NCBI GenBank assembly: GCA_014381505.1
Contig: JACNLK010000026.1
Span: 1 to 50,344, forward strand
DNA length: 50,344 bases
Reading direction: 5' to 3'
From: Candidatus Desulfatifera sulfidica
GTDB taxonomy: Bacteria > Desulfobacterota > Desulfobulbia > Desulfobulbales > Desulfocapsaceae
The notes below the pieces were generated by a model. It saw nothing but the letters and a program-made list of their open reading frames with translations. It made no database searches and was not told where the DNA came from. This document shows, in pieces, positions 5,439-21,033 of the stretch. The number at the start of each line of letters is the position of its first letter. Position 1 is the first letter of the stretch. Made by a program: the position numbers and the translations under genes.

Positions 5439-6218
5439 ATGATCACTCTTCCTTATCTCTTACCAGTTGTCATGCTCATCGGCCTGATCGCCGTCTCACT
5501 GAAAATCGTTCCGGAATTCGAACGACTGGTGGTCTTTTTTCTGGGTCGCTTCCAGGTGGTCAAAAAACCTGGTCTGCGCCTGATCATCCCCGGTATCCAG
5601 CAGGCCGTCCGGGTGGATCTCCGGGTGATTACCATGGATGTCCCCAGCCAGGATGTCATCTCCCGCGACAATGTTACGGTCCGGGTCAACGCGGTTCTCT
5701 ACTTCCGGGTCGTGGACCCGGAGCGGGCGATCATCCAGGTGGAAGACTACTACAACGCCACCAGCCAGCTGGCCCAGACCACCCTGCGTTCGGTGCTGGG
5801 ACAGCATGAACTGGACGAGATGCTCTCGGAACGGGAGAAGATGAACCGAGACCTCCAGGAGATCATCGACCTGCAGACCGACGCCTGGGGGATCAAGGTC
5901 AGCAATGTTGAGATCAAGCACGTGGACCTCAACGAGTCCATGATCCGGGCCATCGCCAAGCAGGCCGAGGCCGAACGTGAACGACGGGCCAAGATCATCC
6001 ACGCCGAGGGTGAACTGCAGGCCTCTGAAAAACTGGTGGCCGCGGCCAATGTCCTCTCCACCAATCCCCAGGCCCTGCAGCTCCGCTACCTGCAGACCTT
6101 AAACGATATCTCCAACGAAAACAGCAGCACCATTATTTTCCCTCTGCCCATTGAAACCATCATGACCTTCATGGGCAAAAATGAACAGACAACCCGAACG
6201 ACAAACAAACAGACATAG
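5439..6218 (+). CDS. Slipin / stomatin-like SPFH-domain membrane protein
   Basis: A 259-residue prohibitin/stomatin homologue. A single N-terminal membrane hairpin (residues about 4-22) is followed by the SPFH domain, with the characteristic [22 protein letters not shown] and [20 protein letters not shown] segments, and an Ala/Glu-rich coiled coil ([15 protein letters not shown]). The start chosen is the ATG at 5439, because AAGGA precedes it at 5426-5430 and it lies one base after the nfeD stop; an in-frame upstream extension would run through nfeD. nfeD-slipin pairs form membrane quality-control modules, the slipin forming oligomeric microdomains and being the NfeD protease substrate or partner. 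The last residues are Thr/Asn/Gln-rich and probably disordered. Confidence 0.93.
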
Positions 6219-6249
6219 GGTCTGTTCAACAAGAAACAGGAGGTGCTCC

Positions 6250-6732
6250 ATGGAAAAAAAGAAAGACCAGTTGATCCGGCAGGAAAAGGGCCGCGCCCTG
6301 TCACCCTTTCAGGAGATGGACCGCTATTTCGATGAGTTTTTTCACCATCCCTTTGCTCTCTTCCGCCATCCGCGATGGGGCCGCCCGCCGCTCTTCAGCG
6401 AGACCGATGAGCTCCTGCCGGTGGCCGATGTCTTTGAAGAGAAAAATGAGGTGATCATCAAGCTTGAGATCCCTGGAATTGACAAAAAGGACATCGATAT
6501 CACCATCCACGCGGGGAGCCTGATCATCTCCGGTGAAAAGAAACAGGAAGAGACAGTCGAAGAGAAGAACTACCACCGCACCGAATGCAGCTACGGCTCT
6601 TTCCGGCGCCAGTTTGCCCTGCCGGAAGACGTGGACGGCGATCAGGCCAAGGCCTCATTCAAAAACGGTATCCTGGAGATTCGTATGCCCAGAAGCGAGA
6701 CCGCCCAGAAGAAACAAATCACCATTGACTGA
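6250..6732 (+). CDS. hsp20: Small heat-shock protein, Hsp20/alpha-crystallin family
   Basis: A 160-residue cytoplasmic holdase chaperone. The start is the ATG at 6250, preceded by a strong ACAGGAGG site. The N-terminal arm contains an FQEMDRYFDEFF segment typical of class A bacterial Hsp20 proteins. The alpha-crystallin domain spans about 56-150 (LPVADVFEEKNEVIIKLEIPGI, then the FKNGILEIRMP signature), and the C-terminal IxI-type anchor is present as QITID at the very end. It lies 31 bases behind the slipin gene and ends 26 bases before a strong terminator, so it is likely the last gene of the nfeD operon, linking membrane protein quality control with cytosolic holding activity. No heat-shock CIRCE element is seen. 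Confidence 0.95.
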   Translation: MEKKKDQLIRQEKGRALSPFQEMDRYFDEFFHHPFALFRHPRWGRPPLFSETDELLPVADVFEEKNEVIIKLEIPGIDKKDIDITIHAGSLIISGEKKQEETVEEKNYHRTECSYGSFRRQFALPEDVDGDQAKASFKNGILEIRMPRSETAQKKQITID

Positions 6733-6758
6733 CAGAAAACTGAGCCAGTCGAATATGC

Positions 6759-6793
6759 GGGAGAGGGACCGAAAGCGGCTCTCTCCCTTTTTT
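6759..6793 (+). terminator. Rho-independent terminator after hsp20
   Basis: GGGAGAG (6759-6765) pairs with CTCTCCC (6781-6787). A smaller CCG/CGG pair lies inside the loop, and a T-run directly follows the stem. It closes the nfeD-slipin-hsp20 unit. Confidence 0.85.
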
Positions 6794-6906
6794 ATGGGTA
6801 ACTCGAAAAAGAGCCCCTTCGTCCGATTACTGCGTTGCTCTGGAAATAACACGCCTCACATCTGCCCGAGGTGCTGCGCTTCTTCTTTCCGTCGCGCCCT
6901 ATACTC

Positions 6907-6936
6907 GAACAAAATTTCTTATTTTTCCAGATACCC
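6907..6936 (+). repeat. Dispersed repeat, diverged copy
   Basis: GAACAAAATTTCTTATTTTT followed by CCAGATACCC aligns without gaps to the repeats at 7032 and 8154 with a few substitutions. Confidence 0.6.
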
Positions 6937-7031
6937 TTATCTGCTACGCTCAGGGGGAAAAGTTTGGGTATCGATCTGCCATCAACATGTTTTTCAGGAT
7001 TTTTTCATGAAAATATGACAAGATAAGTGCA

Positions 7032-7062
7032 GGAACAAAATTGCTGATTTTTCAAGATTGCC
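7032..7062 (+). repeat. Dispersed repeat, close copy
   Basis: This 31-base segment differs from 8154-8184 at only about three positions. Both contain AACAAAATTGCTKATTTTTC followed by AAGRTTGCC. Confidence 0.75.
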
Positions 7063-7084
7063 TCAAGGTTGCCTCCAGGTTGCC
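7052..7084 (+). repeat. Three tandem 11-bp repeats (TCAAGGTTGCC)
   Basis: TCAAGATTGCC, TCAAGGTTGCC and TCCAGGTTGCC follow one another head to tail, then a partial fourth unit TCAAGAACC. The unit equals the 3' end of the dispersed repeat. The array lies just upstream of the zinc transporter gene. It could be slippage amplification of a repeat end or a set of operator sites. Confidence 0.8.
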
Positions 7085-7133
7085 TCAAGAACCAGCCATA
7101 TCAGACCCTTAGAAACAAGCCCCCGGAATCAGC

Positions 7134-7955
7134 ATGAACTATGACACAAGCGCTGTCCTTTTCGCCTTTGGCCTGACCCTGTTTGCCGGCATGTCCACCG
7201 GCGTCGGCAGTGCCCTGGCCTTTTTCACCAGACGAACCAACACGACACTGCTCACCACATCCCTCGGTTTTTCGGCCGGGGTGATGATCTATGTCTCCAT
7301 GGTGGAAATCTTTGTCAAGGCCCGGACTTCACTGAGTGCCGTGGCTGGAGAATCACAGGGCTATCTGCTGACCACGCTCGCCTTTTTCGGAGGGATCTTT
7401 CTCATCGCCCTGATCGACAAGCTGGTGCCATCTTTTGAAAACCCCCACGAAATCAGGGGAGTCGAAGACATGAACGATGAGCGCGTTGAGGCCCGTAAAA
7501 AACAGGCCCTCCACCGCATGGGCCTGTTCTCGGCCCTGGCCATCGGCATCCATAATTTTCCGGAGGGATTGGCTACCTTTGTGGGAGGGCTCGAAGACCC
7601 GGCCCTGGGCATCAGCATCGCCGTGGCCATCGCCATTCATAACATCCCGGAAGGAATCGCGGTCTCCGTACCGCTCTATTACGCCACGGGCAACCGAAAA
7701 AAAGCCTTTCTCTACTCCTTTGCTTCGGGCCTGGCAGAACCGGTGGGCGCCATTGTCGGCTATTTCCTCTTCCTGCAATATTTCAACGACTACATCTTCG
7801 GACTCCTGTTTGCCATGGTTGCCGGGATCATGGTCTTTATCTCCCTGGACGAATTACTGCCCACCGCCGAAAAATACGGAGAACACCATCTGGCCATGTA
7901 CGGCGTGGTTGCCGGTATGGCCGTGATGGCCGCCAGCCTGCTCTTGTTTACCTGA
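7134..7955 (+). CDS. zupT: ZIP-family metal transporter, ZupT type
   Basis: A 273-residue protein with eight predicted membrane segments. The two family metal-binding helices are clear: [10 protein letters not shown] (about residues 140-149) and [10 protein letters not shown] (about 169-178). These carry the His, Asn and Glu residues of the binuclear transport site. A cytoplasmic loop between segments three and four (about 105-130) is charged and lacks the His-rich run of eukaryotic ZIPs. ZupT proteins import Zn2+ and other divalent cations (Fe2+, Mn2+, Co2+) across the inner membrane. The gene stands alone between two repeat-containing gaps. The ATG (AGCATGAACTATG) has only a weak ribosome site. 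Confidence 0.95.
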
Positions 7956-8387
7956 ACGATCACAGCCGTGGGGGAAAAATTCATAAAACCGGAGCCGTCT
8001 TTTTTCCCTTCTCCTCAGCACAGCGCCTGTCATATGGCAACCTTGAAAAATGGCTCTGTTGCCCAAGCCCAAAGCCTGCGTTGCCGATAAAATTTAAAAC
8101 GCTCACATATCAAGCACATGCTGTGCTTTTAACTTTCATCAGCGCCTTGTTTTGAAACAAAATTGCTTATTTTTCAAGGTTGCCATATAATAATTTACAT
8201 TCTCACTTGCGGATTGTTCTGGAAGATAGGCTCTCTTCTTTTCATTGCTCAACCGAACAAAAAACGTACTTCCCATTTTTTCTCTAAGCTCTCTCAAGGT
8301 CTTGTCGGCAGGTAAAGACCAGACTTCGACAAGGCTCTTTCCGCCAAAATCGCAGTACCAGATACGACAGTAACAGGAGGATACGGC
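7956..8387. other. Intergenic stretch with a MITE-like element
   Basis: No gene with coding character is visible in these roughly 430 bases. They hold the inverted-repeat element at 8032-8188 and, further on, a spaced inverted repeat CTTGTCG (8301-8307) / CGACAAG (8327-8333) ahead of the next gene. A minus-strand frame crosses the region but its translation matches nothing recognisable. Confidence 0.6.
8032..8188. repeat. MITE-like element with 20-bp perfect inverted termini
   Basis: ATATGGCAACCTTGAAAAAT at 8032-8051 is the exact reverse complement of 8169-8188. The interior contains a perfect hairpin, AAGCACA-TGC-TGTGCTT (8112-8128), and no reading frame of note. The total length of about 157 bp, terminal inverted repeats and non-coding interior are those of a miniature inverted-repeat element. 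No target-site duplication is obvious by eye. The right terminus is extended by the sequence shared with 7032-7062. Confidence 0.7.
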
Positions 8388-8870
8388 ATGGATAAAGGAC
8401 AGTTCGGACGAAGGGACAGGCTGGTTCAGGAAAAAAGCCACGACACCTACAAAGAAGACGGGAAATGGCCCGAGCCGACCCTCTGCACGGGATGCAGCGC
8501 CGTCTTTGCCGGTGGTCGCTGGTCTTGGAAAGACGCCCCTGACAAGGCTAATACCGTGCTTTGCCCCGCCTGCCAGCGCATCAACGATAACTTTCCGGCC
8601 GGAACCATTGACCTGGCGGGGTCGTTCTACGGCAAGCATCGGGAAGAAATCCTCAATCTGATTCGCAATGAAGAAAAACTGGAAAAAGGCGAGCACCCCC
8701 TGGAACGAATCATCCATATCAGCGAAACGGAAGGAGGGGGGAACATCACCACCACAGGGATTCATATTGCCAGCCGCATCGGTAAGGCAATTCATCGGGC
8801 CTATCAGGGTGAATTGTCCGCCAGCTATGGTGACGGCGAAAAAACCATCCGCATCTCATGGAGCAGATGA
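8388..8870 (+). CDS. BCAM0308-like zinc-ribbon protein
   Basis: A 160-residue soluble protein preceded by a strong AGGAGG site. The N-terminal third has a PEPTLCTGCSAVFAGGRWSW segment and, about 30 residues later, CPAC, giving a CxxC...CxxC zinc ribbon (about 34-65). The following NDNFPAGTIDL and HREEILNLIRNEEKLEKGEHPLERI segments match my recollection of the uncharacterised BCAM0308 family, distantly related to the Nmd3/archaeal zinc-ribbon proteins. A basic/acidic C-terminal domain follows. Its molecular role is unknown; nucleic-acid or ribosome binding is a guess from the fold. It is monocistronic, convergent with ktrA, and separated from zupT by repeats. Confidence 0.7.
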   Translation: MDKGQFGRRDRLVQEKSHDTYKEDGKWPEPTLCTGCSAVFAGGRWSWKDAPDKANTVLCPACQRINDNFPAGTIDLAGSFYGKHREEILNLIRNEEKLEKGEHPLERIIHISETEGGGNITTTGIHIASRIGKAIHRAYQGELSASYGDGEKTIRISWSR

Positions 8871-8917
8871 CCGGTTACCGGCCTTGAAAAGAAAGATCCT
8901 GGCAAGCCATCAGGGGA

Positions 8918-9583
8918 TCAAGGGGTTGCAAAGATCTTCTCAATATCAACCTGACGACCGATGACCACCAGACGATCACCCAGCAGAAGGGTCTGGTCGG
9001 GATCTGTGACCACCTGTGGAGACTGATCCCGACGCTTGAGAATCAGGACTGTCACTTTATGGCGGCGACGCAGATCAAGCTCACTGAAACTCTTGCCGGC
9101 CAGGGCCTCGTCCACCAGAATTTCAGCAATATCGATCTCCTGGTCCAGCTTGAGAAAATCCAGAAGATTAGGGACGGTGAGCCGTTCAGCCAGATGCGCG
9201 GCACTCTGTTTTTCGGGCAGGATGACTTCATCGGCACCGATCTTGAGCAGAATCTGTTCCTGGATCAGGCTGCTCGCCCGGGCAATGATCCGGCGAGCTC
9301 CGAGATTGTTGAGACAGGTCACCCCCAGAACCAGCTCTTCAAAATTACTGCCCAGACCGATAATAATCAGATCAAACTGGTCCAGGCCAAGATCGGCCAT
9401 GGCCTCCTCATCGGCAATATTAGCCACCATGGCCTCAGCCACACTGTCCTTGATCCGTTCCACCGCCTGAACACGCACATCCACTGCCACGACTGTATTT
9501 CCTCGAGCGGCCAGCCCCACAGCCACCTCATGGCCAAAGATCCCCAGACCAATCACCGCGATATTTTTTTTCATTCCGCTCAC
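8918..9583 (-). CDS. ktrA: Potassium uptake regulatory subunit KtrA/TrkA
   Basis: A 221-residue cytoplasmic RCK protein. Residues about 5-125 form the RCK_N Rossmann fold (VIGLGIFGHEVAVGLAARG, then VVAVD and ANIADEEAM), which binds NAD(H) or ATP/ADP. Residues about 140-220 are the RCK_C ligand domain (LVGDRLVVIG-like ending). Its single RCK unit, rather than the tandem unit of E. coli TrkA, fits the Ktr system. The GTG start shares four bases (GTGA) with the ktrB stop, indicating coupled translation; the in-frame ATG at 9574 is an alternative. As the last gene of the Mrp-Ktr operon it should gate KtrB in response to nucleotides. Confidence 0.92.
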   Translation of the reverse strand: MSGMKKNIAVIGLGIFGHEVAVGLAARGNTVVAVDVRVQAVERIKDSVAEAMVANIADEEAMADLGLDQFDLIIIGLGSNFEELVLGVTCLNNLGARRIIARASSLIQEQILLKIGADEVILPEKQSAAHLAERLTVPNLLDFLKLDQEIDIAEILVDEALAGKSFSELDLRRRHKVTVLILKRRDQSPQVVTDPDQTLLLGDRLVVIGRQVDIEKIFATP

Positions 9584-10860
9584 CCCAGTATGATTTGTTC
9601 TTCCGGATAATCAATATGACTGACCACAACCAGCCGACACATCTGCATGGCCAGCAGAGCCGGACCTAAGCGACCCACAAGCATGGTTCCGATCAAGACC
9701 AGTTTGCCGGTCGTACCCGCCTCAGCGGTGAGCCCCAGAGTCAGACCAACCGTCCCCATGGCTGAAATCGCCTCAAAGAGCGTGGTCAACAAGTCTGCGC
9801 CCTCAAAAAAGAGAAGAAGCAAGGTGCTGAACCAAACCGCCATCAAATAGCAGGCAAAAAGGACAAAGGCCCGGTTGACCAGGTCCGGTCCCAGTTTTCT
9901 CCTGAATGCCACCACCCTGTTCCGGCCTCTGATCGCGGCAATACAGGCGGCCGCCACCAGAAAGACAGTGGTCAGTTTCATCCCCCCCCCTGTGGATCCG
10001 GGCGCAGCGCCGATGAGCATCAAAAACATGATCAGAACCAGGGCAGCCGGTTGCAGCAGGTCCGGGGAAAGGGTATAAAATCCGGCCGTCCGCGCGGTAA
10101 TCGCCAGAAAAAAGGCGTCAGCCAGACTGATCCGGCCCTGCTCCAGCCAGTACACGACCCCTCCCCCGACCGTAATCAGCACCAGGCTGCCCAACAGGGT
10201 TACACGGCTGTGCAGTGAGGGGCGGCGGCGATCACGACACCAGCAGACACAATCATAGGCGATATAGGCACCCAGGCCGCCAAAAACGATCAACAATGCC
10301 ACACCGGTTTGTACCAGGACATGACTTTGAACCAGGCTCTGATCCAGGGGTGAAAAGCCGGCATTACAAAAGGCTGACACTGCATGAAAACATCCAAGAT
10401 AGAGACTCTCGCTCAGGGAGGCGCCGTCCAGACGGAAACCCGCCGCCAACACCAGCGTCCCAAGGAATTCAACCACCAGGGTATAGACAAGTATGGTCCA
10501 GAGGACCATGGGGACCTGGGCCAGCCGAACCCCTTCCAGAACCTGGGCCGTATGCAGACGAGTCGGCAGATCAAGCTTTCCTCGAATCAGCAGGATCACG
10601 CTGGAGGTCAAGGTCATGATCCCGATGCCGCCCAGCTGGATCATGAACAGAATCAAGATCTGACCGGGACGATCAAAGGTGGAAAGAGGCTGTGTCATCA
10701 AACCGGTGACACAGACCGCCGAGGTGGCCGTAAACAGACGGTCCACCAGACTCAGGCCGTTGACCGGAACAAACGGCGCCTGTCCCATGAGCAGGGCCCC
10801 GGCCAGGATCAACACACAAAAGGTCAGGCTCAGCAGCCATTCAATGGGCCATTTTTTCAT
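9580..10860 (-). CDS. ktrB: Potassium uptake channel subunit KtrB/TrkH
   Basis: A 426-residue membrane protein of the SKT family with four M1-P-M2 repeats. Selectivity-loop segments are visible, for example ATSAVCVTGL in the first repeat, HAVSAFCNAGFS in the second, GAAPGSTGGGMKLTT in the third and EAISAMGTVGLTLG in the fourth. It imports K+ (often Na+-coupled) together with KtrA. The start is the ATG at 10860: it follows GGGGGGAG and overlaps the upstream stop as ATGA. An apparent upstream extension would read back into the antiporter gene. Its position behind Mrp genes suggests that Na+ extrusion and K+ uptake are expressed together. Confidence 0.94.
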   Translation of the reverse strand: MKKWPIEWLLSLTFCVLILAGALLMGQAPFVPVNGLSLVDRLFTATSAVCVTGLMTQPLSTFDRPGQILILFMIQLGGIGIMTLTSSVILLIRGKLDLPTRLHTAQVLEGVRLAQVPMVLWTILVYTLVVEFLGTLVLAAGFRLDGASLSESLYLGCFHAVSAFCNAGFSPLDQSLVQSHVLVQTGVALLIVFGGLGAYIAYDCVCWCRDRRRPSLHSRVTLLGSLVLITVGGGVVYWLEQGRISLADAFFLAITARTAGFYTLSPDLLQPAALVLIMFLMLIGAAPGSTGGGMKLTTVFLVAAACIAAIRGRNRVVAFRRKLGPDLVNRAFVLFACYLMAVWFSTLLLLFFEGADLLTTLFEAISAMGTVGLTLGLTAEAGTTGKLVLIGTMLVGRLGPALLAMQMCRLVVVSHIDYPEEQIILG

Positions 10861-12596
10861 GCTCCCCCCAGCACCGCCAGCAATAGCAGACACAAAGCCG
10901 TATAGGCAATGCCCACCGTCAGCCAGCGCTCAAAAATGCGTTCCCGGCCGGGAAGTTGTTGCGCGGCAAGACGAAGAATCGTCCACCACTGTCTGCGCAC
11001 ACGCCTGAACAATCCATCTGTCCAGGCCCGAACAACCGCCAGCAGGGTCAGACAGGAAGGGCCAAGCTCTGACCAGAACCTTCCCTGCCTTCTGGTCGGG
11101 CTCTGCTCTCTGCGCAATCGCGCAAAAACAGGATAACTGAATGCCCCCAGGAGGATGGGCCAGGATCCGTGGATGATGCCGGGCAGGGCCAGGGAATAGA
11201 GAAGCTCTGATCGAGCCACTGACCACAGCCAGGGCGCGAAAATCACCAGTCCCACCCCTGAGATCCAAGGCCAGGGAAAAAGATTCTCTCTCCTCTCCTG
11301 ACCGGGAGTCCGGCCGGCCATCACCTCCTCTCGAACCCGGACCAATAAATGGACCATCAGCAGGGTGGTCGCCGCGGATGACAGACCCAGAAAGAAGGGC
11401 GCTAATCCGGCCCAGGAGGGCATCAGAGCAGAGAGCAGCCCCTTCAGGGCCCCTTTGGCCGCCAGACCGCTGCTCAAGGGAAGACCAGCCAGGACCAGGG
11501 CCGGAATAAAAAACAGAACCAGCCACCAGAAGGAACAGAATCTGCCCCGAGTCAAGGCATCCAGGCCGAGAAAGAGTGAGGCCTTGGCCAGTCCGTGGTG
11601 AACGACAAAGAAAAGAAGAACCGGCAGGGCCTCTCCACCGGCCAGGGGAGAGGAGATTCCAACTCCGAAAATAATGGTCATGAGTCCCAGCTGACTGATA
11701 CTGGATCCGGCCAGAATTCCGGCCGGTCGGGTCTCACGGAGCCCGAGTACAACCCCGTACAGGGCCGCCAGGCCACCAACAGTTACAAGGACGAGACCCG
11801 CAGCAGGAATGGCAACCTGACCCAGTGGTAAAAATCGCAGCCAACCCAGAAGACCTGCATTGACCATGGCTCCGGCAAGGGCCACAGCCGCGGGCAGGGG
11901 AATTTCCCGGTAGACCCGAATCATCCAGCGATGAAAGGGCAGGGCGCCGATCTTGATCCCAAAACCCACAAAGAGCATCAACAAAAACAAACTGTTCTGC
12001 CAGCCAGACTGAGCCAGGCCATCCAAGTCAACGACCTCACCAGACATCAAGAGCAGGGCCAGAAAAATGGCAATCTCGCCGAGCATGACCATCACCAGAT
12101 AGAGGCGCCCAGCCCGACGCGAACCTGGATGACGATCATAGATCACCAGACCGTAGACAGCAAAACTCATCAGGGCGAAAAAAAGATAAAAACCGAGCAG
12201 TTCCTGAGCCAGAATCAGGCCAAAATTGCCCGCCATGGCCGTCAGATAAAAAGCGGAAAATCGAGGCCGCAAGAAACCCAGCAGCCCCTGACCGCTGGCG
12301 CTGAACCCTGCCAGCAGCCACACAACAGCGCTGAGAGTCAAAAAGACCCGACCGGAAGAATCAAGCCCCATTCGACCGCCCATGAAAAACCAGGGCGCCT
12401 CAACCACCACATCTGGCGGTACCAACCAGACCGTGAGCAGAGCCGGCAGTGGTGCCCAGGCAAAAAAAGGACTCAATATCCGTCTGGGAGACAGAGAGAG
12501 AGGCAGAGAAAGGCTGGCAGCAAGAACGAGCGGGACCCCTGCCACCAAGGAAAGGATTACCAGATACATGTCAAGAGTCAGTCCGCTCGGCATCAT
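10857..12596 (-). CDS. Mrp antiporter-like subunit (NuoL/M/N family), third copy
   Basis: A 579-residue polytopic protein of the proton-conducting membrane transporter family (Proton_antipo_M), the most divergent of three such subunits in the operon. The conserved lysine-bearing helix appears as GIKIGALPFHRWMIRVYREIP (about residues 223-240), followed by the VNAGLLGWLRF and SISQLGLM helices; a longer hydrophilic-hydrophobic C-terminal tail distinguishes it. In complex I and Mrp antiporters these subunits form half-channels that move H+ or Na+. ATG at 12596 overlaps the previous stop (ATGA); the next codon is also ATG. A MrpA N-terminal-like role is possible since no long MrpA is encoded here. 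Confidence 0.8.
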   Translation of the reverse strand: MMPSGLTLDMYLVILSLVAGVPLVLAASLSLPLSLSPRRILSPFFAWAPLPALLTVWLVPPDVVVEAPWFFMGGRMGLDSSGRVFLTLSAVVWLLAGFSASGQGLLGFLRPRFSAFYLTAMAGNFGLILAQELLGFYLFFALMSFAVYGLVIYDRHPGSRRAGRLYLVMVMLGEIAIFLALLLMSGEVVDLDGLAQSGWQNSLFLLMLFVGFGIKIGALPFHRWMIRVYREIPLPAAVALAGAMVNAGLLGWLRFLPLGQVAIPAAGLVLVTVGGLAALYGVVLGLRETRPAGILAGSSISQLGLMTIIFGVGISSPLAGGEALPVLLFFVVHHGLAKASLFLGLDALTRGRFCSFWWLVLFFIPALVLAGLPLSSGLAAKGALKGLLSALMPSWAGLAPFFLGLSSAATTLLMVHLLVRVREEVMAGRTPGQERRENLFPWPWISGVGLVIFAPWLWSVARSELLYSLALPGIIHGSWPILLGAFSYPVFARLRREQSPTRRQGRFWSELGPSCLTLLAVVRAWTDGLFRRVRRQWWTILRLAAQQLPGRERIFERWLTVGIAYTALCLLLLAVLGGA

Positions 12597-14089
12597 GGCA
12601 GATATCCCTCAACAATGAAGCGTACCCAGGCCAAAGGACTGATCTGAGCCTCTGCCAGAACACCAATCAGGAGAACGACAGCTGCGGTTAACAATGGTGG
12701 ACAAAGAAGCATGAGCCGAGTCTCAAAACGACCAAAGTTTTTCTCATCGGGCCAGGGCCCCACTGGCCGATCAAACCAGGCAGTAATCAGAATTGGTAAA
12801 AAATAAGCCGCATTCAACAGGCTGCTGAGCATCAGTACCGCCACCACGACCCAGTTGCTGGCCGAGAGAGCGCCCAGCCCCAGAAACCATTTACTGACAA
12901 AACCGGCGGTGGGCGGCAGACCAATCATCCCCAGGGCCCCGACGGTAAAGGCCCCCATGGTCCAGGGCATGCGTCTGGCAATGCCCCGCATCTCACTGAT
13001 TCGATGCACACCCAGCGTCTCAGCCAGATTCCCGGCACAGAAGAAAAGAGTGATCTTCATAATCCCCTGATGGACCAGATGAACCAGGCCGCCAATCAGG
13101 GCCAGTCGATGATCGGCCAGACTGATGCCCAGCCCAATGTAGGAGATTTGACTGATCGTAGAAAAAGCCAGTCGCCGCTTGAGATCATCCTGCTGCAGAG
13201 CCCGAAACGACCCCCAGAGAATAGTCAAGGTGGCCACAAATGTGAGCAGAGGCAGCAGGCCTAAAACAATCATGTTTTCCAGCCCATAGACATCCAAAAC
13301 AATACGAACTATGCCAAAAGCCCCAGCCTTGACCACGGCCACGGCATGAAGCAGGGCGCTGACCGGAGCCGGTGCAATCATGGCCTGTGGCAGCCAGCCA
13401 TGCAGGGGAACCAGAGCCGCTTTAACGCCAACGCCTGCTATCAATAAAACAAAGAGCAGACTGAGCAAAGGACCATGTTCAACGACAAGATGGGATGCAA
13501 AACCGTCAGAACCAAAATCCATGGGTCCGGTCAAAACCTGAAGCCAGGCTGCAGCCAGAAAAAACAGCGCTCCGCCCCCCAGGGTATACACCAGATAATT
13601 ACGCCCGGCCCTGAGCGACTGCGGGGTGCCGCGATGAACAATCAGCGGATAAGTACTCAAGGTCAGCATTTCATAAAAAAGAATAAAGGTGATCAGGTTC
13701 CCGGCCAGGGCAATGCCAATGGTCACTGTCACACAGAGGCTGAAATAGCCAAAAAAATGACTCCGATTGGGCGAATCCTCAAGATATCCCACGGCATAAA
13801 TAGTTGTTAAGAGCCAGAGAACACTCGACAGCGTGGTAAACAGGGCCGAGAGAGGATCTGCATGGAGGTAGACCTCCATGCCAGCCACGAGGGGGAGGCG
13901 AATTTCGTAGCTGTACCCCAGATAAATGCCAACATTCAGAACCACGATCAAACCAATCTTGATCAGGGAACCGCAGAGGTTCAGGGTCGTACGCAGGCGC
14001 ACCCGATCCTCCGGCAGACCGAAAATAATAATCCCCGGGACAAAAGAACTGAGCATGATCAGGACCAGCAGCCAACCCGAGCCATTCAT
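12593..14089 (-). CDS. mrpD: Mrp antiporter subunit D-like protein, second copy
   Basis: A 498-residue membrane protein with the antiporter core motifs: a glutamate on the FYEMLTLSTYPLIV helix (about 135-150), the lysine in GVGVKAALVPLHGWLPQAM (about 225-243), HAVAVVKAGAFGI (about 252-264) and STISQISYIGLG. It belongs to the MrpD/NuoM/NuoN family and would translocate cations as part of the Mrp complex. The start is the ATG at 14089 because GGAGG precedes it and it shares ATGA with the upstream gene; a longer open frame to 14200 lies inside the neighbour and is not credible. Paralogous to both flanking genes. Confidence 0.87.
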   Translation of the reverse strand: MNGSGWLLVLIMLSSFVPGIIIFGLPEDRVRLRTTLNLCGSLIKIGLIVVLNVGIYLGYSYEIRLPLVAGMEVYLHADPLSALFTTLSSVLWLLTTIYAVGYLEDSPNRSHFFGYFSLCVTVTIGIALAGNLITFILFYEMLTLSTYPLIVHRGTPQSLRAGRNYLVYTLGGGALFFLAAAWLQVLTGPMDFGSDGFASHLVVEHGPLLSLLFVLLIAGVGVKAALVPLHGWLPQAMIAPAPVSALLHAVAVVKAGAFGIVRIVLDVYGLENMIVLGLLPLLTFVATLTILWGSFRALQQDDLKRRLAFSTISQISYIGLGISLADHRLALIGGLVHLVHQGIMKITLFFCAGNLAETLGVHRISEMRGIARRMPWTMGAFTVGALGMIGLPPTAGFVSKWFLGLGALSASNWVVVAVLMLSSLLNAAYFLPILITAWFDRPVGPWPDEKNFGRFETRLMLLCPPLLTAAVVLLIGVLAEAQISPLAWVRFIVEGYLP

Positions 14090-15591
14090 GGCAGACCTCC
14101 CGAAATAACCGCGCCACCATTCGCCGTCAGCAGGGCCATGATACCCGGTGCAAACAGCCCGAGTAAGAGGGCGATCAGAGACAGGACAAGGGGCGGCCAC
14201 TCAAGCAGGGCAGGGGTGGGCCGGCCATCAAAAATTGACGCTCCCACCGGTGCCTGAAACAAAGGCGACATGACACGGAAGACATAGGCCGCAGCCAGCA
14301 GACCTCCAGCCATGATTGCCACGGACCACCACCACTGACCATCATCAAAGGCTCCGGTCAAAAGCAACCATTTACCGACAAAACCTCCGGATGGCGGGAG
14401 TCCCATCAGATTAACCCCGGCCATACCATATGCAAAAACCGTCAGTGGCATGACCAGCCTTATTCCATGGAGATCTCTCATTCGATCATGACCGCTGTGG
14501 AGATACATTGTGCCTGCGGCCATAAACATGGCCACCTTGGCACAGCCATGGGCCAGGATCATAAAGAGAAATGCGGTCCAGACAGAAAGCGTCGCATCAT
14601 GGTAAGCCAGAGGGAAGGCGATCAGAAAATAACCAACCTGTGAAACCGTAGAATAGGCCACCAGCAATTTGAGCCGCTGCTGGAGCAGGGCCAGAATTCC
14701 ACCCCAAAATACGGCAAGGATCCCAAGCATGCCGATCACGTTCAAAGCTGCGGGACTGATCAGGGACGCGAAGGTATCAAACCAGAACCGAAAAAGAAGA
14801 TACAGCGATCCTTTGATGACCAGACCTGAAAGGATGGCACTGACCGGGGCCAGGGCATTGGCATGGGCCGGGGGCAGCCAGAAATGCAGAGGAAAAGCAG
14901 CGCTCTTGAGGAGCAGGCCACAACTCATGAGAACCAGACCGGCAGTCATGGACGATCCGGGTTCAACCACTGCCCGAAGCAGACCCAGGTCGAGGACGCC
15001 GTGGCTGCGATAAATAAAAAAAATGCCCAGGAGATAGCTGAGCGAACCAAGCAAACTGGCCAGCAAGTACCGAAAACTGGCCAACTGGGCCACCGGCTTA
15101 CCGGAGAGGGCGGCCAGAGCTACAGCCGAGATGCTGAGCAGCTCCAGGGTAACATAAATATTAAAGATATCACCCGAGAGAAACAAACCATTCAGAGCTG
15201 CCAGGAGCATCAGCCACAGGGGCCAGAAAAAACGTTCCTGCCGTTCATGTCGACCGGGTTGTTTCTGGGCCGATATCCGATAGGCAAAATAACCGCGGGC
15301 ATAGCAGGTGACTCCTGCACCGCAGAGTGCAGTGAGCAGGAGCATGAGCAAGGCCGGACCATCGAGTACCAGAACGATCCCCAGAGGGGTCTCCCAGCCG
15401 CCAATCTGATAATGCAAGGGGCCCTGGATCAGGAGGAGACGAGTCAACCGGATCACAACAATCAGATTGACCAAAGCAAAGGCCAGCGGTAACCACAGAC
15501 TCCGTTGTCGCCAGAGAAAGCAGAGCAGGCCACCGGCCAGGGGCAGAACCACGGGCAAAACCATCCAGAAAGACGCAGAAACCGTCGGCAT
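14086..15591 (-). CDS. mrpD: Mrp antiporter subunit D, first copy
   Basis: A 501-residue membrane protein. MrpD features include the GDIFNIYVTLELLSISAVAL helix with its essential glutamate (about 145-165), KSAAFPLHFWLPPAHANALAP (about 225-245), SGLVIKGSLYLLFRFWF, and STVSQVGYFLIA. The family exchanges Na+ (or K+) for H+ as a subunit of the multi-protein Mrp complex. It sits directly downstream of mrpC (stop and start share one base, TGATG), the order seen in classical Mrp operons, so this copy is the most likely genuine MrpD. About 14 membrane helices are apparent. Confidence 0.92.
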   Translation of the reverse strand: MPTVSASFWMVLPVVLPLAGGLLCFLWRQRSLWLPLAFALVNLIVVIRLTRLLLIQGPLHYQIGGWETPLGIVLVLDGPALLMLLLTALCGAGVTCYARGYFAYRISAQKQPGRHERQERFFWPLWLMLLAALNGLFLSGDIFNIYVTLELLSISAVALAALSGKPVAQLASFRYLLASLLGSLSYLLGIFFIYRSHGVLDLGLLRAVVEPGSSMTAGLVLMSCGLLLKSAAFPLHFWLPPAHANALAPVSAILSGLVIKGSLYLLFRFWFDTFASLISPAALNVIGMLGILAVFWGGILALLQQRLKLLVAYSTVSQVGYFLIAFPLAYHDATLSVWTAFLFMILAHGCAKVAMFMAAGTMYLHSGHDRMRDLHGIRLVMPLTVFAYGMAGVNLMGLPPSGGFVGKWLLLTGAFDDGQWWWSVAIMAGGLLAAAYVFRVMSPLFQAPVGASIFDGRPTPALLEWPPLVLSLIALLLGLFAPGIMALLTANGGAVISGGLP

Positions 15592-15917
15592 CAGGAGTCT
15601 CCCTGTGGAGGATGCTCCCCTTCAGACGACCCGGCCCCCCCTGACGTCTCCTGTATCCGGCAGGCCAGCACCAAAGCCAGGGCTGTAACGCTGACCGAGA
15701 CGACAATCCCGGTCAGAACCATGGCCTGAGGCACGGGATCAATGGCGACACCAACCCGACCATGACAGGCCATGGCAATAAAAAGAAGAAAAACCCCGGC
15801 CGCCATGACATTAACGGCCATAATCTTTTTCAGGGGATGGGAACGCAGGATCAGAGCGGTAAAACCCATGAAAAACAGACAGAGCCCGCCCAATTTATAA
15901 GCAAAGAGGACGGTCAT
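15591..15917 (-). CDS. mrpC: Mrp antiporter subunit C (NuoK-like)
   Basis: A 108-residue protein with three membrane helices. The MrpC hallmark DPVPQAMVLTGIVVSVSVTAL occupies about residues 60-82. The C-terminal 25 residues are hydrophilic and Gly/Ser/Glu-rich. MrpC is the counterpart of NuoK in complex I and helps form the ion path between antiporter subunits. ATG overlaps the upstream stop by four bases (ATGA at 15914-15917). Confidence 0.93.
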   Translation of the reverse strand: MTVLFAYKLGGLCLFFMGFTALILRSHPLKKIMAVNVMAAGVFLLFIAMACHGRVGVAIDPVPQAMVLTGIVVSVSVTALALVLACRIQETSGGAGSSEGEHPPQGDS

Positions 15918-16936
15918 GACCCCTCCTCCAGCTGCCCGCGATCAACAAGATCATCCACGGGCCGACCACCGACAAAGAGACAGGCCAGGGTCAGTCCAAT
16001 GGACAACCCACAGGCAAGCTCAATGAGAAGAATCAAAAACCCGGCCAGTTCTCCGGGATATTCCAGGAACCGTCCATCGGCCAGACAACTCACACCAAGT
16101 CCGAGGAAAACCAAGGGACCAAAGACCAGCATCAGGCGCACGGGCAACGAAGGAATGAGCCTCAGCCAGGGCAGCTCCGAAACCATCATCAGAACCCCGG
16201 CCGCAGCAAGGACCGCCCCACCCTGAAAGGCGCCACCAGCCAGATGCGTACCTTGCCAGATTAGCGAAACGGCTACGAGAATCATCAGCGGGGCCAAAAT
16301 ACGCACCACCCCCTGTTGGATGGGACTGACCTGACCACTTTTCTCTGAAAATCGAACAGTCGCCAGAGACCAGACCGCAACCACCGCCACAAAGAGAACC
16401 ATGATCTCCAGCAGAGTATCATAGCCCCTGAAATTAAGAAGGACTGCTGTCACCGGGCTGATCACACCACTTTCTTCCTGCTGTTCCGCCACAAATACAC
16501 CCAGGCCCGGATTTTCATATTCCACATGCAGCAGGATCGTGGCCAGGTGCACCAACAGAGTCAGGAGCAGACCAGCAAAGAGTATCCGCAACAGCAGATA
16601 TATGATTCTGCCACTGGTACGCTGAGTTACTTTTTCTATTTTCCCCCTGTGTTCTATGCTGTCAAGCTGCTGTCGACGCTCACCCTTACGAGTTCCCCTG
16701 AGGCGATGCAGGGCCGAAAGAAACAAAGGGCCTGTCAGACCAGCACCGAGCGCGGCCTCGGCCAGGGCCACATCTGGTGCCGCCAGTCGAACCCAGGCAA
16801 GCGCCATGACCAGACCAAAAGACATGAACAGCACCATGGCCTTAAAAAGATCTGGAGTGGCCAGCAATTGCCAAGCCAGGCCAAGAAGAGTAACCAGCAC
16901 CACACAATCAAAGAGAGTCAGCGAAAGGCTGTTCAT
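15914..16936 (-). CDS. mrpB: MrpA C-terminal domains fused to MrpB
   Basis: A 340-residue membrane protein combining parts usually found in two subunits. Residues about 5-80 form a DUF4040/MbhD-like unit (VRLAAPDVALAEAALGAGL). Residues about 115-200 resemble MbhE, the segment at the end of long MrpA (NFRGYDTLLEIMVLFVAVVA). Residues about 205-320 are an MnhB domain (GTHLAGGAFQGGAVLAA). The N-terminal antiporter part of MrpA is absent and must be supplied by one of the three NuoL/M/N-like genes. The ATG at 16936 is preferred because it forms the ATGA overlap seen throughout this operon; an ATG at 16948 would add four residues. A basic, charged loop near 80-105 separates the first two units. Confidence 0.85.
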   Translation of the reverse strand: MNSLSLTLFDCVVLVTLLGLAWQLLATPDLFKAMVLFMSFGLVMALAWVRLAAPDVALAEAALGAGLTGPLFLSALHRLRGTRKGERRQQLDSIEHRGKIEKVTQRTSGRIIYLLLRILFAGLLLTLLVHLATILLHVEYENPGLGVFVAEQQEESGVISPVTAVLLNFRGYDTLLEIMVLFVAVVAVWSLATVRFSEKSGQVSPIQQGVVRILAPLMILVAVSLIWQGTHLAGGAFQGGAVLAAAGVLMMVSELPWLRLIPSLPVRLMLVFGPLVFLGLGVSCLADGRFLEYPGELAGFLILLIELACGLSIGLTLACLFVGGRPVDDLVDRGQLEEGS

Positions 16937-17238
16937 GACCGCATCCATGGTTTAATATTTTTCTCCAGGGCACTGCGGGCAATCAGATGGCAGGAGGCGG
17001 AACTGGCGATCAGGACCAGTAACCAGACCATGAGCAGGCGCAAGGCTTCGAACAGGCTCCCGGCCTGACAGATCAGCCCGAGAACAATCAAACCGAGACC
17101 CACATTATCGGCCTTGGTCAAGGCATGCAGACGAGTAAAAATATCAGGGAAGCGAAGCAGCCCCAGACTGCCGGAAAGAAAAAAAGGCAGCCCACAGACA
17201 ATCAGAACAATCCCTGTCAAATCCAGAACCTCACGCAT
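16933..17238 (-). CDS. mrpG: Mrp antiporter subunit G
   Basis: A 101-residue membrane protein with three helices. The MnhG signature GLLRFPDIFTRLHALTKADN lies at about residues 26-45. MrpG is a small subunit with no complex I counterpart, needed for assembly and activity of the Mrp antiporter. It starts three bases after the mrpF stop and its own stop overlaps the next start. Confidence 0.94.
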   Translation of the reverse strand: MREVLDLTGIVLIVCGLPFFLSGSLGLLRFPDIFTRLHALTKADNVGLGLIVLGLICQAGSLFEALRLLMVWLLVLIASSASCHLIARSALEKNIKPWMRS

Positions 17239-17241
17239 CAG

Positions 17242-17502
17242 TCACCTCCGCCCCTGCCAGGTTCGCAATATAAAGGTCATGACCGCAAGGACAGCGAGGA
17301 GGGCAAAAACCAGGGCGACATGAACCAGAATGCTCCGCTCCAGGGCCTGGGCCAAAAGGAGAAGAATAGCGACACCACAGGTCGTCAGTAACTGGATCGC
17401 CAACATCCGATCAGCCGCGGTGGGACCAATCAGAATTCGCACCATGCCACCACTCACAGCAATAAGCAGAACCAGGACAGCCAGGAGAGTCACACCGCTC
17501 AT
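17242..17502 (-). CDS. mrpF: Mrp antiporter subunit F
   Basis: An 86-residue, three-helix membrane protein with the family motif RILIGPTAADRMLAIQLL (about residues 22-39). MrpF is an essential small subunit of the Mrp Na+/H+ antiporter. ATG overlaps the mrpE stop (ATGA, 17499-17502). Confidence 0.94.
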   Translation of the reverse strand: MSGVTLLAVLVLLIAVSGGMVRILIGPTAADRMLAIQLLTTCGVAILLLLAQALERSILVHVALVFALLAVLAVMTFILRTWQGRR

Positions 17503-18035
17503 GAATCACCTCCAGGAGCAGAAAACTGACAAAAGAGATACGCAACCCGGCTTTCCATCTCCTGCACCTGCTCAAGGGCTGATCCGGAGCAATCCAGGCA
17601 GTGAATGGTCAGCTGATTTTCGCGCAATTCCGCACTCAAAGTTCCAGGCAGCAGACTGATCACATTGGCAAAAAAAGTCTGCGCCGGTCCAGGGGCAAGG
17701 CGAGTCGTATACGTCAAAAAACCGGGATCAATACGAGGGCCTGGTGAACAAACACGAATCATGACATCCAGACCACTCACAAAAGACTGGCCGAGAAAAT
17801 AAGGGAAAAAGCGGAGAAATCCTCTGACGCTCAGGAAAAATGCAGGACCGGCGAGGAAAAGACTCAAGGCCGTAGCCAGAAAAACAGCGGGCAGGCCCAC
17901 AAACCAGCTCATGGTTTCCTGACCGGCCAACACCAGCCAGACTGAGGCAAAAAACAGCAATCGCGGCCAGACCCGCGGCCAGAATTGAGACCGGAGCGGC
18001 CTTATTCCCTGCAACCACCCTGTCCCATTATCCAT
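17499..18035 (-). CDS. mrpE: Mrp antiporter subunit E
   Basis: A 178-residue membrane protein of the MnhE family and the first gene of the Mrp-Ktr operon. Two or three N-terminal helices (about 22-95) precede a cytoplasmic domain containing the conserved ANVISLLPGTLSAEL stretch (about 120-134). The ATG follows a purine-rich GGAAAGGAAGG site. Upstream, a TATAAT on the minus strand (18056-18061) is only about 20 bases away and has no clear -35 partner, so the promoter is uncertain. Confidence 0.92.
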   Translation of the reverse strand: MDNGTGWLQGIRPLRSQFWPRVWPRLLFFASVWLVLAGQETMSWFVGLPAVFLATALSLFLAGPAFFLSVRGFLRFFPYFLGQSFVSGLDVMIRVCSPGPRIDPGFLTYTTRLAPGPAQTFFANVISLLPGTLSAELRENQLTIHCLDCSGSALEQVQEMESRVAYLFCQFSAPGGDS

Positions 18036-18335
18036 GGCACCTTCCTTTCCCAGGGATTATAACGGTATGATCCTCCATCATTTATTTTCGGCTGTTCAGG
18101 GTCTGGAAGTCAAGTTTTTTCATGGCCCAATGTTTCACGATCAACAATATCAGGACAGTCAAAATTGATTTTTCATCTTTCGTGGCTGATCGTCCTCGGG
18201 TAGTATATCATCAAAGAAGCAACGACCGACCAGGGGCTCGATCACCACAGGGACCTCGCGAGCCAATAAATTCAGGCTCCTTTGATAAGTTCTCTTTTCA
18301 AGGGAACCTTTAATTAACAACCACAAGGAACAACC
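18036..18335. other. Divergent intergenic region, mrp operon / nitroreductase
   Basis: This 300-base gap should hold both promoters. A TATAAT on the minus strand lies at 18056-18061. An inverted repeat GAGCC-N10-GGCTC occurs about 80 bases ahead of the nitroreductase. No convincing hexamer pair, small gene or RNA is seen. Confidence 0.5.
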
Positions 18336-18998
18336 ATGGAAGCGATAGAGTGCATCACCACCCGTAAGAGTATCCGCAAATTCCTCGACCAGCCTGTCTC
18401 CAAAGAACTGATCATGGAGGTCATCCGGACAGCCCAGCAGAGCCCATCCTACAAAAACAGCCAACCCTGGGAAGTTGCAGTGGTCAGTGGGGCCAAAAAA
18501 GAAGGTTTAAGCACATTAATGATCGATCTTCTGACAGCGGACCAGCCCCCCTGTCCTGATCTGCCTGCACCTTCCTCCTGGCCTGAGGCCGAGGGTGACC
18601 GAATCAAGGATTTATTACGGATGCGCAAGGAGGCCACGGGCATTGATCTCGGCGACCCGGCAATCATCAAAAAAGCCAAAAAGGCCAATTTTTCCTTTTA
18701 TGGGGCCCCCCTGGCTGTCTATCTCTATCAGGACAGCTCTCTTTCGGAATGGTCACTCTTTGATCTGGGCCTCTTTGCCCAAAGTCTGATGCTGGCCGCC
18801 CACGGCAAGGGTCTTGGCAGTGTCCCCCAGGCCTTTGCCACCGATTATTCCGCCCAGGTTAAAGAGTATTTGGGAATCCCGGCCACTAAACGACTGGTTC
18901 TGGGCCTGAGCATGGGCTATCCGGACATGGACTCCTCGCTCAACAAGCTGACCACCAGCCGCTCACCAGTGGAAGAGATCAGCACCTGGATCGAGTAA
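18336..18998 (+). CDS. Nitroreductase-family FMN oxidoreductase
   Basis: A 220-residue protein with the nitroreductase fold. The N-terminal FMN-phosphate motif is CITTRKSIRKFLDQPV (residues about 6-21) and the NSQPWE segment (about 45-50) contacts the flavin. GLGSVPQAF (about 155-163) and VLGLSMGYPD (near 188-197) are the usual C-terminal FMN-binding blocks. The family reduces nitro compounds, quinones or enones with NAD(P)H; the substrate cannot be inferred. An AAGGA site precedes the ATG. The first 30 or so bases of this gene and its leader recur in degraded form at 21351-21385, evidence of a past duplication. Confidence 0.9.
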   Translation: MEAIECITTRKSIRKFLDQPVSKELIMEVIRTAQQSPSYKNSQPWEVAVVSGAKKEGLSTLMIDLLTADQPPCPDLPAPSSWPEAEGDRIKDLLRMRKEATGIDLGDPAIIKKAKKANFSFYGAPLAVYLYQDSSLSEWSLFDLGLFAQSLMLAAHGKGLGSVPQAFATDYSAQVKEYLGIPATKRLVLGLSMGYPDMDSSLNKLTTSRSPVEEISTWIE

Positions 18999-19133: not shown

Positions 19134-19733
19134 ATGATGAAGACATTTGAAGAAGTGGTCCGCTTTCACGGACATGCCTGTCCCGGTCTGGCCTTTGGCT
19201 TCCGGGTTGCCGAAGCAACCCTGACCACTCTGGGGGACCGGGCTCAGGACGAAGAACTGGTGGCAATCGTTGAAAACCGCTCCTGTGCCGTGGATGCCAT
19301 TCAGGCGGTCTGCGGCTGCACCCTGGGCAAGGGCAACCTGGTGGTCAGGGATTATGGCAAACAGGTCTACACCTTTCTCAAAAGACCAGACGGTGCAGGC
19401 ATACGGATCAGTGTCATTTGGAACGGACCCACCGAGGATGCTGCAACGACTGCACTCTGGCAACAATTTTTCAAAGGAGACCGGACACCTGAAGTCATGC
19501 GGGGGATCAGGGCTGCCAAGGGGCGCAAGATGCAGGCCATTCTCAAGGCTGAGCTCAATGAATTATTTGAGATCCGTGAAATACAAGAAACACTGCCCGA
19601 GGCCGCCCGGGTCTGGCCCAGCATCCGTTGCGCCGCCTGCGGCGAAAAGACCATGGAGCCCATGATCCAGACCGTGGCCGAGCAACCACTCTGCATCCCC
19701 TGCGCCGAAGCGAACAAACATCCAACACGTTAA
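19134..19733 (+). CDS. FmdE-family protein with C-terminal zinc finger
   Basis: A 199-residue protein. Residues about 5-140 are the FmdE domain, with FHGHACPGLAFGFRVAE (about 10-26) and CAVDAIQAVCGCTLGKGNL (about 51-70); these Cys/His residues bind metal in structurally known relatives. The last 35 residues carry a CAAC...CIPC zinc finger. FmdE was named from formylmethanofuran dehydrogenase operons, but none of the catalytic subunits is nearby, as is common for bacterial FmdE homologues, some of which sit in molybdopterin contexts. Function here is unknown. ATGATG gives two possible starts three bases apart. It is transcribed with, or shortly after, the nitroreductase. Confidence 0.87.
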   Translation: MMKTFEEVVRFHGHACPGLAFGFRVAEATLTTLGDRAQDEELVAIVENRSCAVDAIQAVCGCTLGKGNLVVRDYGKQVYTFLKRPDGAGIRISVIWNGPTEDAATTALWQQFFKGDRTPEVMRGIRAAKGRKMQAILKAELNELFEIREIQETLPEAARVWPSIRCAACGEKTMEPMIQTVAEQPLCIPCAEANKHPTR

Positions 19734-19800
19734 TCTGACTTACCATGCGCATGGTCAGCCACTGTCACCACAGACAGAACGTCACTCTTCAGTACTCGAT

Positions 19801-19837
19801 TTCATGTTCATTTCCGGCATCAAGCTGAAGTGACAGC
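19801..19837 (+). repeat. Copy A of the duplication relic beside kamA
   Basis: ATTTCCGGCATCAAGC and its flanks (ATGTTSA before, AGTRACAG after) match 21469-21502 in the same orientation. About 50 bases upstream, GGTCAGCCACTGTCACC also matches 21438-21454 (GGCCAGCCATTGCCACC), so homology extends over about 85 bases. Confidence 0.7.
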
Positions 19838-19848
19838 AGAGCACGTAA

Positions 19849-21033
19849 TCAGTGCATCAGATCCAGATCTTCGAGCCAGCCGGCATTTTCAGTCAGACGG
19901 CCCATGAGAATACGCGAGGCTTCTTCCGGGTGTTCCGGGCGGGAGTGAATCTGGCTCATCACCAGAATGTCATCTTTTCGTCCGCAGATCTCAATTTTTC
20001 CGATGTCATGCCCCATAATGAACTTGAAGCGCTTGGCATAGCCATCTAAACGACGCTTGGCCTCTGACACAATATCTACACCGCGCTTAAGAGGCACCTG
20101 GAAGTGATGGCGCACCCGCGCAACAGGCATGCACTGGTACAGATAGTAGGGGTTTACGCCGATGCGAACCAGTCCGTTCATCAAATCTTCAAGATCTGCA
20201 ACTGTGTCATTGACACCCTTGAGGAATACAGTCTGGTTGTTGACGGTAATGCCAGCACTGCGAATACGTCTCACCGCCTCCCTAGATATATCTGTGATCT
20301 CGTTGGCGTGATTGAAATGGGTTGGGACATAGAGGGTCTTGTGCCGGTTGAAATCCCGCAACACTTCGATCAGTTCATCATCAAAATAACGCAGGGGATA
20401 CACCACTGGAGTACGGGTTCCAATGCGGACATAATTCACATGATCTATATTCTTTAAGGCCTCCAGCATCTTGGCGATGACCTTGGTGGGCAGCATCATG
20501 GGATCACCACCAGAAATGATTACATTGGTGATTTCCTTGTGTCTGGCAATGTACTTGGCGGCATTCTGGAAGTTATCAACGGTCTTGTCACCGGGGAGTC
20601 CCACCAAGCGCTTGCGGAAGCAGTGGCGACAGTACATGGAACAGTATTCGGTGGCAACCACCAGGGCTGAATAAGGATACTTATGCAGGATCCCGTTTCC
20701 CTTATTATGTTTATCGTCACCATAGGGATCCCCTGTTGTTTCACCCATTTGACCAACAACAACAAGTTCCTCGACTGAGGGGATTGCCAGTTTCCTGACA
20801 GGGTCGTTGGGGTCATCAGCGTTGATGAGACTGAGGTAATAGCGTGGTATGTTCATGGGGTGCCTGTCAAGCACATCTTGCATGGACAACCGCTCCTCTT
20901 CGCTCAGGGGAAAATATTGACTCAGTTTGTCAAGAGAATTCAAGTTATTAGAAAGTTCGACCTTCCAGTCTAATTTCTGAAAATCAATACTATCCAGTTT
21001 CTCGAATGGTTCATTGATACTCAATCTACCCAT
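19849..21033 (-). CDS. kamA: KamA-family radical SAM aminomutase (lysine 2,3-aminomutase-like)
   Basis: A 394-residue radical SAM enzyme. The [4Fe-4S] motif CSMYCRHC (CxxxCxxC) lies at about residues 133-140 and is followed by FRKRLVG, typical of the lysine 2,3-aminomutase group. ISGGDPMML (near 174-182) is the SAM-binding GGE-like block, and PLP-binding family residues occur further on. The enzymes shift the alpha-amino group of lysine or glutamate to the beta position, for osmolyte (N-acetyl-beta-lysine), antibiotic or EF-P modification. No acetyltransferase (AblB) or epmA gene is visible beside it, so the substrate stays open. An AAGGAG site lies 12 bases before the ATG. Confidence 0.92.
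   Translation of the reverse strand: MGRLSINEPFEKLDSIDFQKLDWKVELSNNLNSLDKLSQYFPLSEEERLSMQDVLDRHPMNIPRYYLSLINADDPNDPVRKLAIPSVEELVVVGQMGETTGDPYGDDKHNKGNGILHKYPYSALVVATEYCSMYCRHCFRKRLVGLPGDKTVDNFQNAAKYIARHKEITNVIISGGDPMMLPTKVIAKMLEALKNIDHVNYVRIGTRTPVVYPLRYFDDELIEVLRDFNRHKTLYVPTHFNHANEITDISREAVRRIRSAGITVNNQTVFLKGVNDTVADLEDLMNGLVRIGVNPYYLYQCMPVARVRHHFQVPLKRGVDIVSEAKRRLDGYAKRFKFIMGHDIGKIEICGRKDDILVMSQIHSRPEHPEEASRILMGRLTENAGWLEDLDLMH

Follow-up and report, generated by a model that had tools for sequence, protein, structure and literature searches.

A ktrBA pair at the end of a putative group-3-type mrp operon in Candidatus Desulfatifera sulfidica

Genes and predicted products of the run

The window analysed here is the whole stretch of 50,344 nucleotides (positions 1 to 50,344 of contig JACNLK010000026.1, assembly GCA_014381505.1, Candidatus Desulfatifera sulfidica). 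It includes ten open reading frames on the minus strand, extending from 18035 down to 8918, which in order of transcription are mrpE, mrpF, mrpG, mrpB, mrpC, mrpD1, mrpD2, mrpD3, ktrB and ktrA (Table 1). The gene names are backed by Pfam and NCBIfam matches.

Table 1. Features of the mrp-ktr region; the last column gives the junction with the next gene in the direction of transcription
Feature	Position	Strand	Details	Junction with next gene
Weak promoter-like site upstream of mrpE	18084..18113	-	TTGACT-18-GAAAAT, 9 of 12; consensus scan only	
mrpE	17499..18035	-	178 aa; PF01899 MNHE, E 2.8e-26	ATGA (-4)
mrpF	17242..17502	-	86 aa; PF04066, E 7.2e-09	3-nt gap
mrpG	16933..17238	-	101 aa; PF03334, E 1.1e-25; TIGR01300 above cut-off	-4 (ATG at 16936) or -16 (ATG at 16948, 12 bases further upstream)
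mrpB (fused MrpA-C-terminal/MrpB)	15914..16948	-	344 aa; alternative start 16936; PF13244 and PF04039 above cut-off	ATGA
mrpC	15591..15917	-	108 aa; PF00420, E 1.2e-15	TGATG (-1)
mrpD1, first antiporter-like subunit	14086..15591	-	501 aa; PF00361, E 2.5e-51	ATGA with ATG 14089
mrpD2, second antiporter-like subunit	12593..14089	-	498 aa; PF00361, E 7e-53	ATGA
mrpD3, distal MrpA-N/NuoL-like subunit, C-terminal helical extension	10857..12596	-	579 aa; PF00361, E 2.7e-31	ATGA with ATG 10860
ktrB, K+ channel-like transporter subunit	9580..10860	-	426 aa; PF02386, E 1.5e-49	GTGA (-4), or 5-nt gap if ktrA starts at ATG 9574
ktrA, single-RCK regulatory subunit	8918..9574	-	218 aa; GTG start 9583 also possible; PF02254 and PF02080	
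MITE-like element	8032..8188		157 bp, inverted ends of 20 nt that match perfectly; flanked by the ZIP transporter gene and ORF 8388-8870; related stretches in same genome (69-87 percent identity) and one in the sister genome	

Subunits B, C, D, E, F and G are encoded in a cluster, and the first eight genes were identified by Pfam and NCBIfam as those of an Mrp antiporter (CPA3). Neither the single long MrpA polypeptide of group 1 nor the MrpA-MrpB fusion of group 2 was found; instead, D3, a gene of its own, encodes the MrpA-N/NuoL-like part and the C-terminal domains of MrpA lie within mrpB, a fusion of MbhD, MbhE and MnhB domains in which the MbhE match (PF20501, 26.8 bits) falls just under the cut-off of 27. 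Group 3 Mrp are described as irregular in gene order in the available part of PMC5703873, and the predicted window Mrp fits group 3 in this loose sense. A redox-driven complex (MBH or complex I) was considered, but no redox-module genes of MBH, MBS or complex I were found among the ten products using Pfam.

The E-F-G-B-C-D1-D2-D3 order is that of the MrpEFGBCD1D2D3 module, which has three antiporter-like subunits. The available text of PMC7419157 explains the solved Mrp with two such subunits, and discusses an extension to three or four for complex-I-like enzymes. Examination of residue columns revealed the Glu of TMH5 and the Lys of TMH7, TMH8 and TMH12 in both mrpD1 (Glu150, Lys229, Lys260 and Lys407; 89 sequences) and mrpD2 (Glu140, Lys223, Lys254 and Lys400; 96 sequences). 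In mrpD3 the TMH5 Glu is absent from all 100 loci, with Ala, Thr, Ser and others in its place, and Asn replaces the TMH8 Lys at 28 of the 100 loci, the window among them. An invariant Glu174 lies in the next helix after TMH5, and Lys215, His334, Lys338 and Lys381 are also invariant (100 loci, helices taken from the model); one idea is that Glu174 could be a relocated acid of the proton path. The structure model of D3 (mb292a16753ae, built with 28 sequences) has a mean pLDDT of 84.5, with low confidence in the C-terminal helices past residue 500, and its top aligned chains are the Dietzia MrpA (7d3u_A, Z 38.7, rmsd 3.9, 483 aligned) and Escherichia coli NuoL (Z 38.6), tied within 1 Z.

The last two genes encode proteins of the KtrB and KtrA types. 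The five solved chains closest to KtrB are all KtrB (E 1.8e-53), placing it with the KtrB-type members of the TrkH family, and its TIGR00933 score of 276 bits is below the cut-off of 331. KtrA includes one TrkA_N and one TrkA_C domain, a single RCK unit, and is closest to solved KtrA/KtrC chains (E 4e-40). The TrkA of TrkAH systems is a dual-RCK protein of about 450 aa (446-475 aa for the proteins of that size in the f22 loci described below), and the window protein, at 218 aa with one unit, is not of this kind. The pair thus resembles the KtrAB complexes 4j7c and 8k1s in consisting of KtrB plus a single-RCK KtrA, but differs in that it sits in an mrp operon. The GC and GC3 values of ktrA (0.543 and 0.589) and ktrB (0.572 and 0.667) are inside the range of the neighbouring genes. 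A second TrkH with a full score is encoded elsewhere in the same genome (G000:C16:21331-22608, L001) and, hence, KtrBA is probably not its sole K+ uptake system.

Junction spacing, transcription and translation

The spacings can be read as seven junctions at -4, one at -1 and one at +3, which is the pattern of seven 4-nt overlaps, one TGATG and one 3-base gap that the first-pass annotation had described, though two of the seven (those at the starts of mrpB and ktrA) hinge on which start codon is chosen. For ktrA, ATG 9574, which has the Shine-Dalgarno (SD)-like stretch GGGGTGAGCGGA upstream, appears more likely than GTG 9583. The starts in the ten-gene run have purine-rich SD-like stretches of their own, and the ktrB start, at an exact ATGA junction, is preceded by the strong SD-like stretch GGGGGGAG.

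To set these spacings against the host genome, a background was assembled from the window plus 20 stretches of other contigs, 310,718 bases in all, in which a simple codon-usage script called 255 genes. A possible ATG or GTG overlap of -4 is available at 7/9 junctions in the run and at 12/163 other same-strand pairs (Fisher p 2e-6), and a start between -4 and +5 at 9/9 versus 27/163 (Fisher p 3e-7). Elsewhere in this sample, close junctions follow one another in chains of two at most. As all nine junctions are close and on one strand, the ten genes are likely to form one operon, as was originally suggested. Matches to promoter- and terminator-like patterns were also recovered within the run, so internal starts or stops are possible: promoter-like sites in the region number 6 versus 3.0 +/- 1.5 in shuffled sequence, including a 10 of 12 match inside mrpB (16665-16638), and terminator-like matches within the run number 26 versus 16.9 +/- 4.9. 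The mrpD3-ktrB junction is known from one contig of a metagenome-assembled genome. A chimeric contig was considered, but two full-length genes, mrpD3 and ktrB, meet exactly at a stop/start overlap in this single assembly.

The overlaps had been taken to mean strict translational coupling, with Na+ export and K+ import made in a fixed ratio, a reading to which their presence at nearly all nine junctions lends itself. However, in 99 other D3-type mrp loci a 4- or 1-nt overlap is possible at 428 of 654 junctions (398 at -4 and 30 at -1), and mrp operons that lack ktr have the same overlaps. Dense overlap is thus a trait of the whole mrp family and, being common to it, is uninformative about any particular Na+/K+ linkage; the view that it specifically marks mrp-ktr coupling was rejected. 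According to the available portion of PMC10666635, -4 and -1 are by far the commonest unidirectional spacings, couple neighbouring genes by termination-reinitiation, and are enriched among subunits of one complex. That coupling need not fix a ratio is illustrated in the accessible text of PMC6728339 by three operons in which downstream proteins can exceed upstream proteins several-fold. Moreover, KtrA and KtrB are present as 8:4 chains in the solved complex 4j7c, not 1:1, the starts have their own SD-like stretches, and the ktrB-ktrA junction may be a 5-nt gap. Hence, these overlaps support probable coupled translation of neighbours and not a fixed ratio of Na+ to K+ transporters, and a Mrp:Ktr ratio set by strict coupling, against which these observations speak, is highly improbable.

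Distribution of the ktrBA tail

D3 loci were collected from a search of the phylum (11), from named genomes (80, the best 80 of 536 confirmed) and from a census of the family (18, with D3 found in 20/93 genomes), and the window was added; removal of 10 duplicates from the 110 left 100 distinct loci. One locus (L058, genome G401) was left out of the counts, as it is a weak 30 percent match and the E-F-G-B-C genes were not found. The plain E-F-G-B-C-D1-D2-D3 series, with B in one or two open reading frames, is present in 75 of the 100, and most of the other 25 are cut by contig ends or have mrpE after D3.

Among the 91 D3 loci with at least 1.5 kb of downstream sequence, ktrB and ktrA follow D3 only in the window, and the other 90 lack KtrBA there. 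In a search of 58 relatives, MnhE was found in 29 and TrkH in 49 but, when compared by eye, the two were within 10 kb of one another only in the window. Several candidates were examined and set aside. TrkH and MnhE are separated by 11.8 kb in G052, where TrkH belongs to a separate trkA-trkH pair, and by about 30 kb in G040. An RCK-bearing open reading frame of 563 aa located 182 bp after D3 in L129, which presumably encodes a CPA2-type exchanger, as judged by the resemblance from its start, was not counted as Ktr; an RCK-like open reading frame of 675 aa in L257, at 44 bits, was not counted as K+ uptake; and weak ktrA- or ktrB-like open reading frames roughly 11-12 kb upstream of the D3 end in L133, L139 and L136 were not counted as a tail. 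Two tandem D3 genes were seen in the mrp operons of L133 and L139, both from Thiobacillus-titled records.

The mrp-ktr order, when looked for in related genomes, was found only in part, the eight-gene mrp portion being kept and the ktrBA tail being confined to the window. A conserved mrp-ktr operon was rejected for the loci and relatives sampled, and the original remark that such a linkage is unusual holds, at 1/91 D3-type loci.

The nearest genome in the sample, from the same genus and 92 percent complete (G001, here the sister genome), lacks MnhE and encodes one TrkH. Its contig C151 carries the SPFH orthologue (of window 5439-6218, 91 percent identity) directly before that of the nitroreductase gene (window 18336-18998, 84 percent), the nitroreductase frame starting approximately 140 bases after the SPFH frame ends. 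Hence, a block of about 12 kb, from approximately 6219 to 18166 in the window, is missing there, and the difference could be due to either gain in the window or loss in the sister genome. An FmdE-domain gene and a radical-SAM gene (Pfam Radical_SAM), the latter presumably related to lysine 2,3-aminomutase, at 19134-21033 in the window are also missing from the syntenic site. In the sister genome that site encodes an RCK-domain protein resembling K+ channels (Ion_trans_2, TrkA_N and TrkA_C; L228:4722-5711), and the spot therefore varies in K+-related genes. A tree of D2 groups the window with members of the order and Desulfobulbales-titled records in a 19-locus clade (support 0.999), which fits either vertical inheritance of the mrp part in the order, together with its loss from the sister genome, or transfer among close relatives.

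These observations bear on whether ktrBA reached the operon end by neutral insertion or rearrangement and is passively carried on the transcript. The tail is in one genome only, the block is absent from the sister genome, the region varies to either side of the nitroreductase gene, and a MITE-like element with further copies in the genome lies within the block. The circumstance that would have undone the first-pass proposal, namely that ktr is there by local accident in one strain, is thus largely what the 1/91 count and the sister genome indicate. However, the exact ATGA junction, the strong SD-like stretch before ktrB and the intact frames point to an arrangement that is used, and we regard purely passive carriage as somewhat unlikely.

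Pairing of mrp with K+ uptake genes and its significance

To look for other pairings, the places of MnhE in 395 genomes from the phylum, 132 of which gave a match, were crossed by eye with those of KtrB, matched in 185. Among the matches listed, KtrB adjoins MnhE in one family (f22). In five of its nine genomes with MnhE (G064, G195, G268, G351 and G388; L237-L241), ktrB is divergent from an mrp of another type and in four of these (all but G388) it is followed by ktrA, a trkA of dual-RCK size and trkH. Of the remainder, two (G136 and G423) have ktrB on another contig, G101 has no ktrB near mrp, and in G166 the mrp locus ends at the contig edge. A further 59 MnhE loci from 57 other families, mostly one per family, were examined; in 45 the mrp block is flanked by 1.5 kb on each side, and 58 gave a match to mrpE. 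In 57 of these 58 no Ktr or TrkH match was found in the stretch examined, the exception being G177 (family f33), where trkA-trkH is divergent and 50 bp from the mrpE frame (L268:9554-13084). If 2 K+ uptake loci per 3.2-Mb genome are assumed, the crude chance expectation over 60 families, with the window left out, is 0.15, and the probability of at least two is 0.010. The pairing of mrp with K+ uptake may therefore be selected.

Both the f22 mrp-ktrBA-trkAH loci and the G177 mrp-trkAH locus resemble the window in that K+ uptake genes adjoin those of a Na+ antiporter, but they are divergent, have another Mrp type and are not one transcript; among the loci examined, mrp and K+ uptake are joined co-directionally into one operon only in the window. 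A dedicated, selected unit for Na+ out and K+ in, favoured because shared control is advantageous and with the ktrB overlap belonging to the design, would be in keeping with these recurrent neighbourhoods and their low chance expectation. However, the f22 and f33 cases share neither Mrp type, orientation nor a promoter with the window, and the great majority of mrp loci lack a K+ uptake partner, whether counted over the mrpE loci (57/58) or downstream of D3 (90/91), making such a unit unlikely. It is rather doubtful that the ten genes make a three-antiporter-subunit Mrp and a KtrBA importer that together form a single unit for Na+/K+ exchange, as the co-directional extreme of a pairing with three or more independent origins in the phylum (window, f22 and f33).

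The explanation we favour, and hold to be probable, is that the locus encodes a complete group-3-type Mrp (MrpEFGBCD1D2D3) whose operon, probably driven by a single promoter ahead of mrpE, has the KtrBA pair as a lineage-specific tail. KtrB with a KtrA ring lets K+ in. The window proteins would have putative Na+(K+)/H+ antiport (Mrp) and K+ import (KtrBA) activities: Mrp would use the proton gradient to drive Na+ expulsion, and KtrB, gated by the KtrA ring, would admit K+. Co-transcription could raise Mrp and Ktr together under salt or alkaline stress, K+ replacing the expelled Na+, and the overlaps may help neighbouring cistrons to be translated and the Mrp complex to assemble, without setting a fixed Mrp:Ktr ratio.

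The eight-gene module is already in print under the name MrpEFGBCD1D2D3, as the available text of PMC13274419 shows for Verruconatronum alginivorum, whose eight subunits and their named order match those here; there TrkAH is elsewhere (locus tags 4400/4402 versus 3463-3473), whereas the window has KtrBA after D3 in the operon. In the group 3 Mrp of Candidatus Nitrospira alkalitolerans two NuoM/NuoL-like genes follow mrpD, and the window too has extra antiporter-like genes at this position, but in the accessible part of PMC7784846 that Mrp clusters with nhaB, bicA and motB, unlike the window, and TrkAH is named as a separate system. Spiribacter salinus has, as in the window, an enlarged ten-gene mrp operon, but the Trk tags (SPISAL_06570/06575) are separate from those of mrp (SPISAL_06635-06680) and a shared operon is not described in the available portion of PMC5818414. 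The mrp/mnh genes of Pelobacter, D. gigas, Thermodesulfovibrio N1, Methanohalophilus and Futiania are likewise described without linkage to ktr or trk in the parts of those sources that were available, and no description of ktr or trk genes inside an mrp operon was found in the literature searched, most of it at listing level.

Most likely, the KtrBA tail is the only unusual part, a fresh arrangement of known parts, and the dense overlaps are normal for mrp operons; the ordinary part, the overlaps inside mrp, can thus be told apart from the unusual one, the ktr tail. The locus provides a natural case where genes for Na+ export and K+ import probably share one message, making their co-regulation testable, and draws attention to mrp and K+ uptake genes recurring as neighbours in the phylum.
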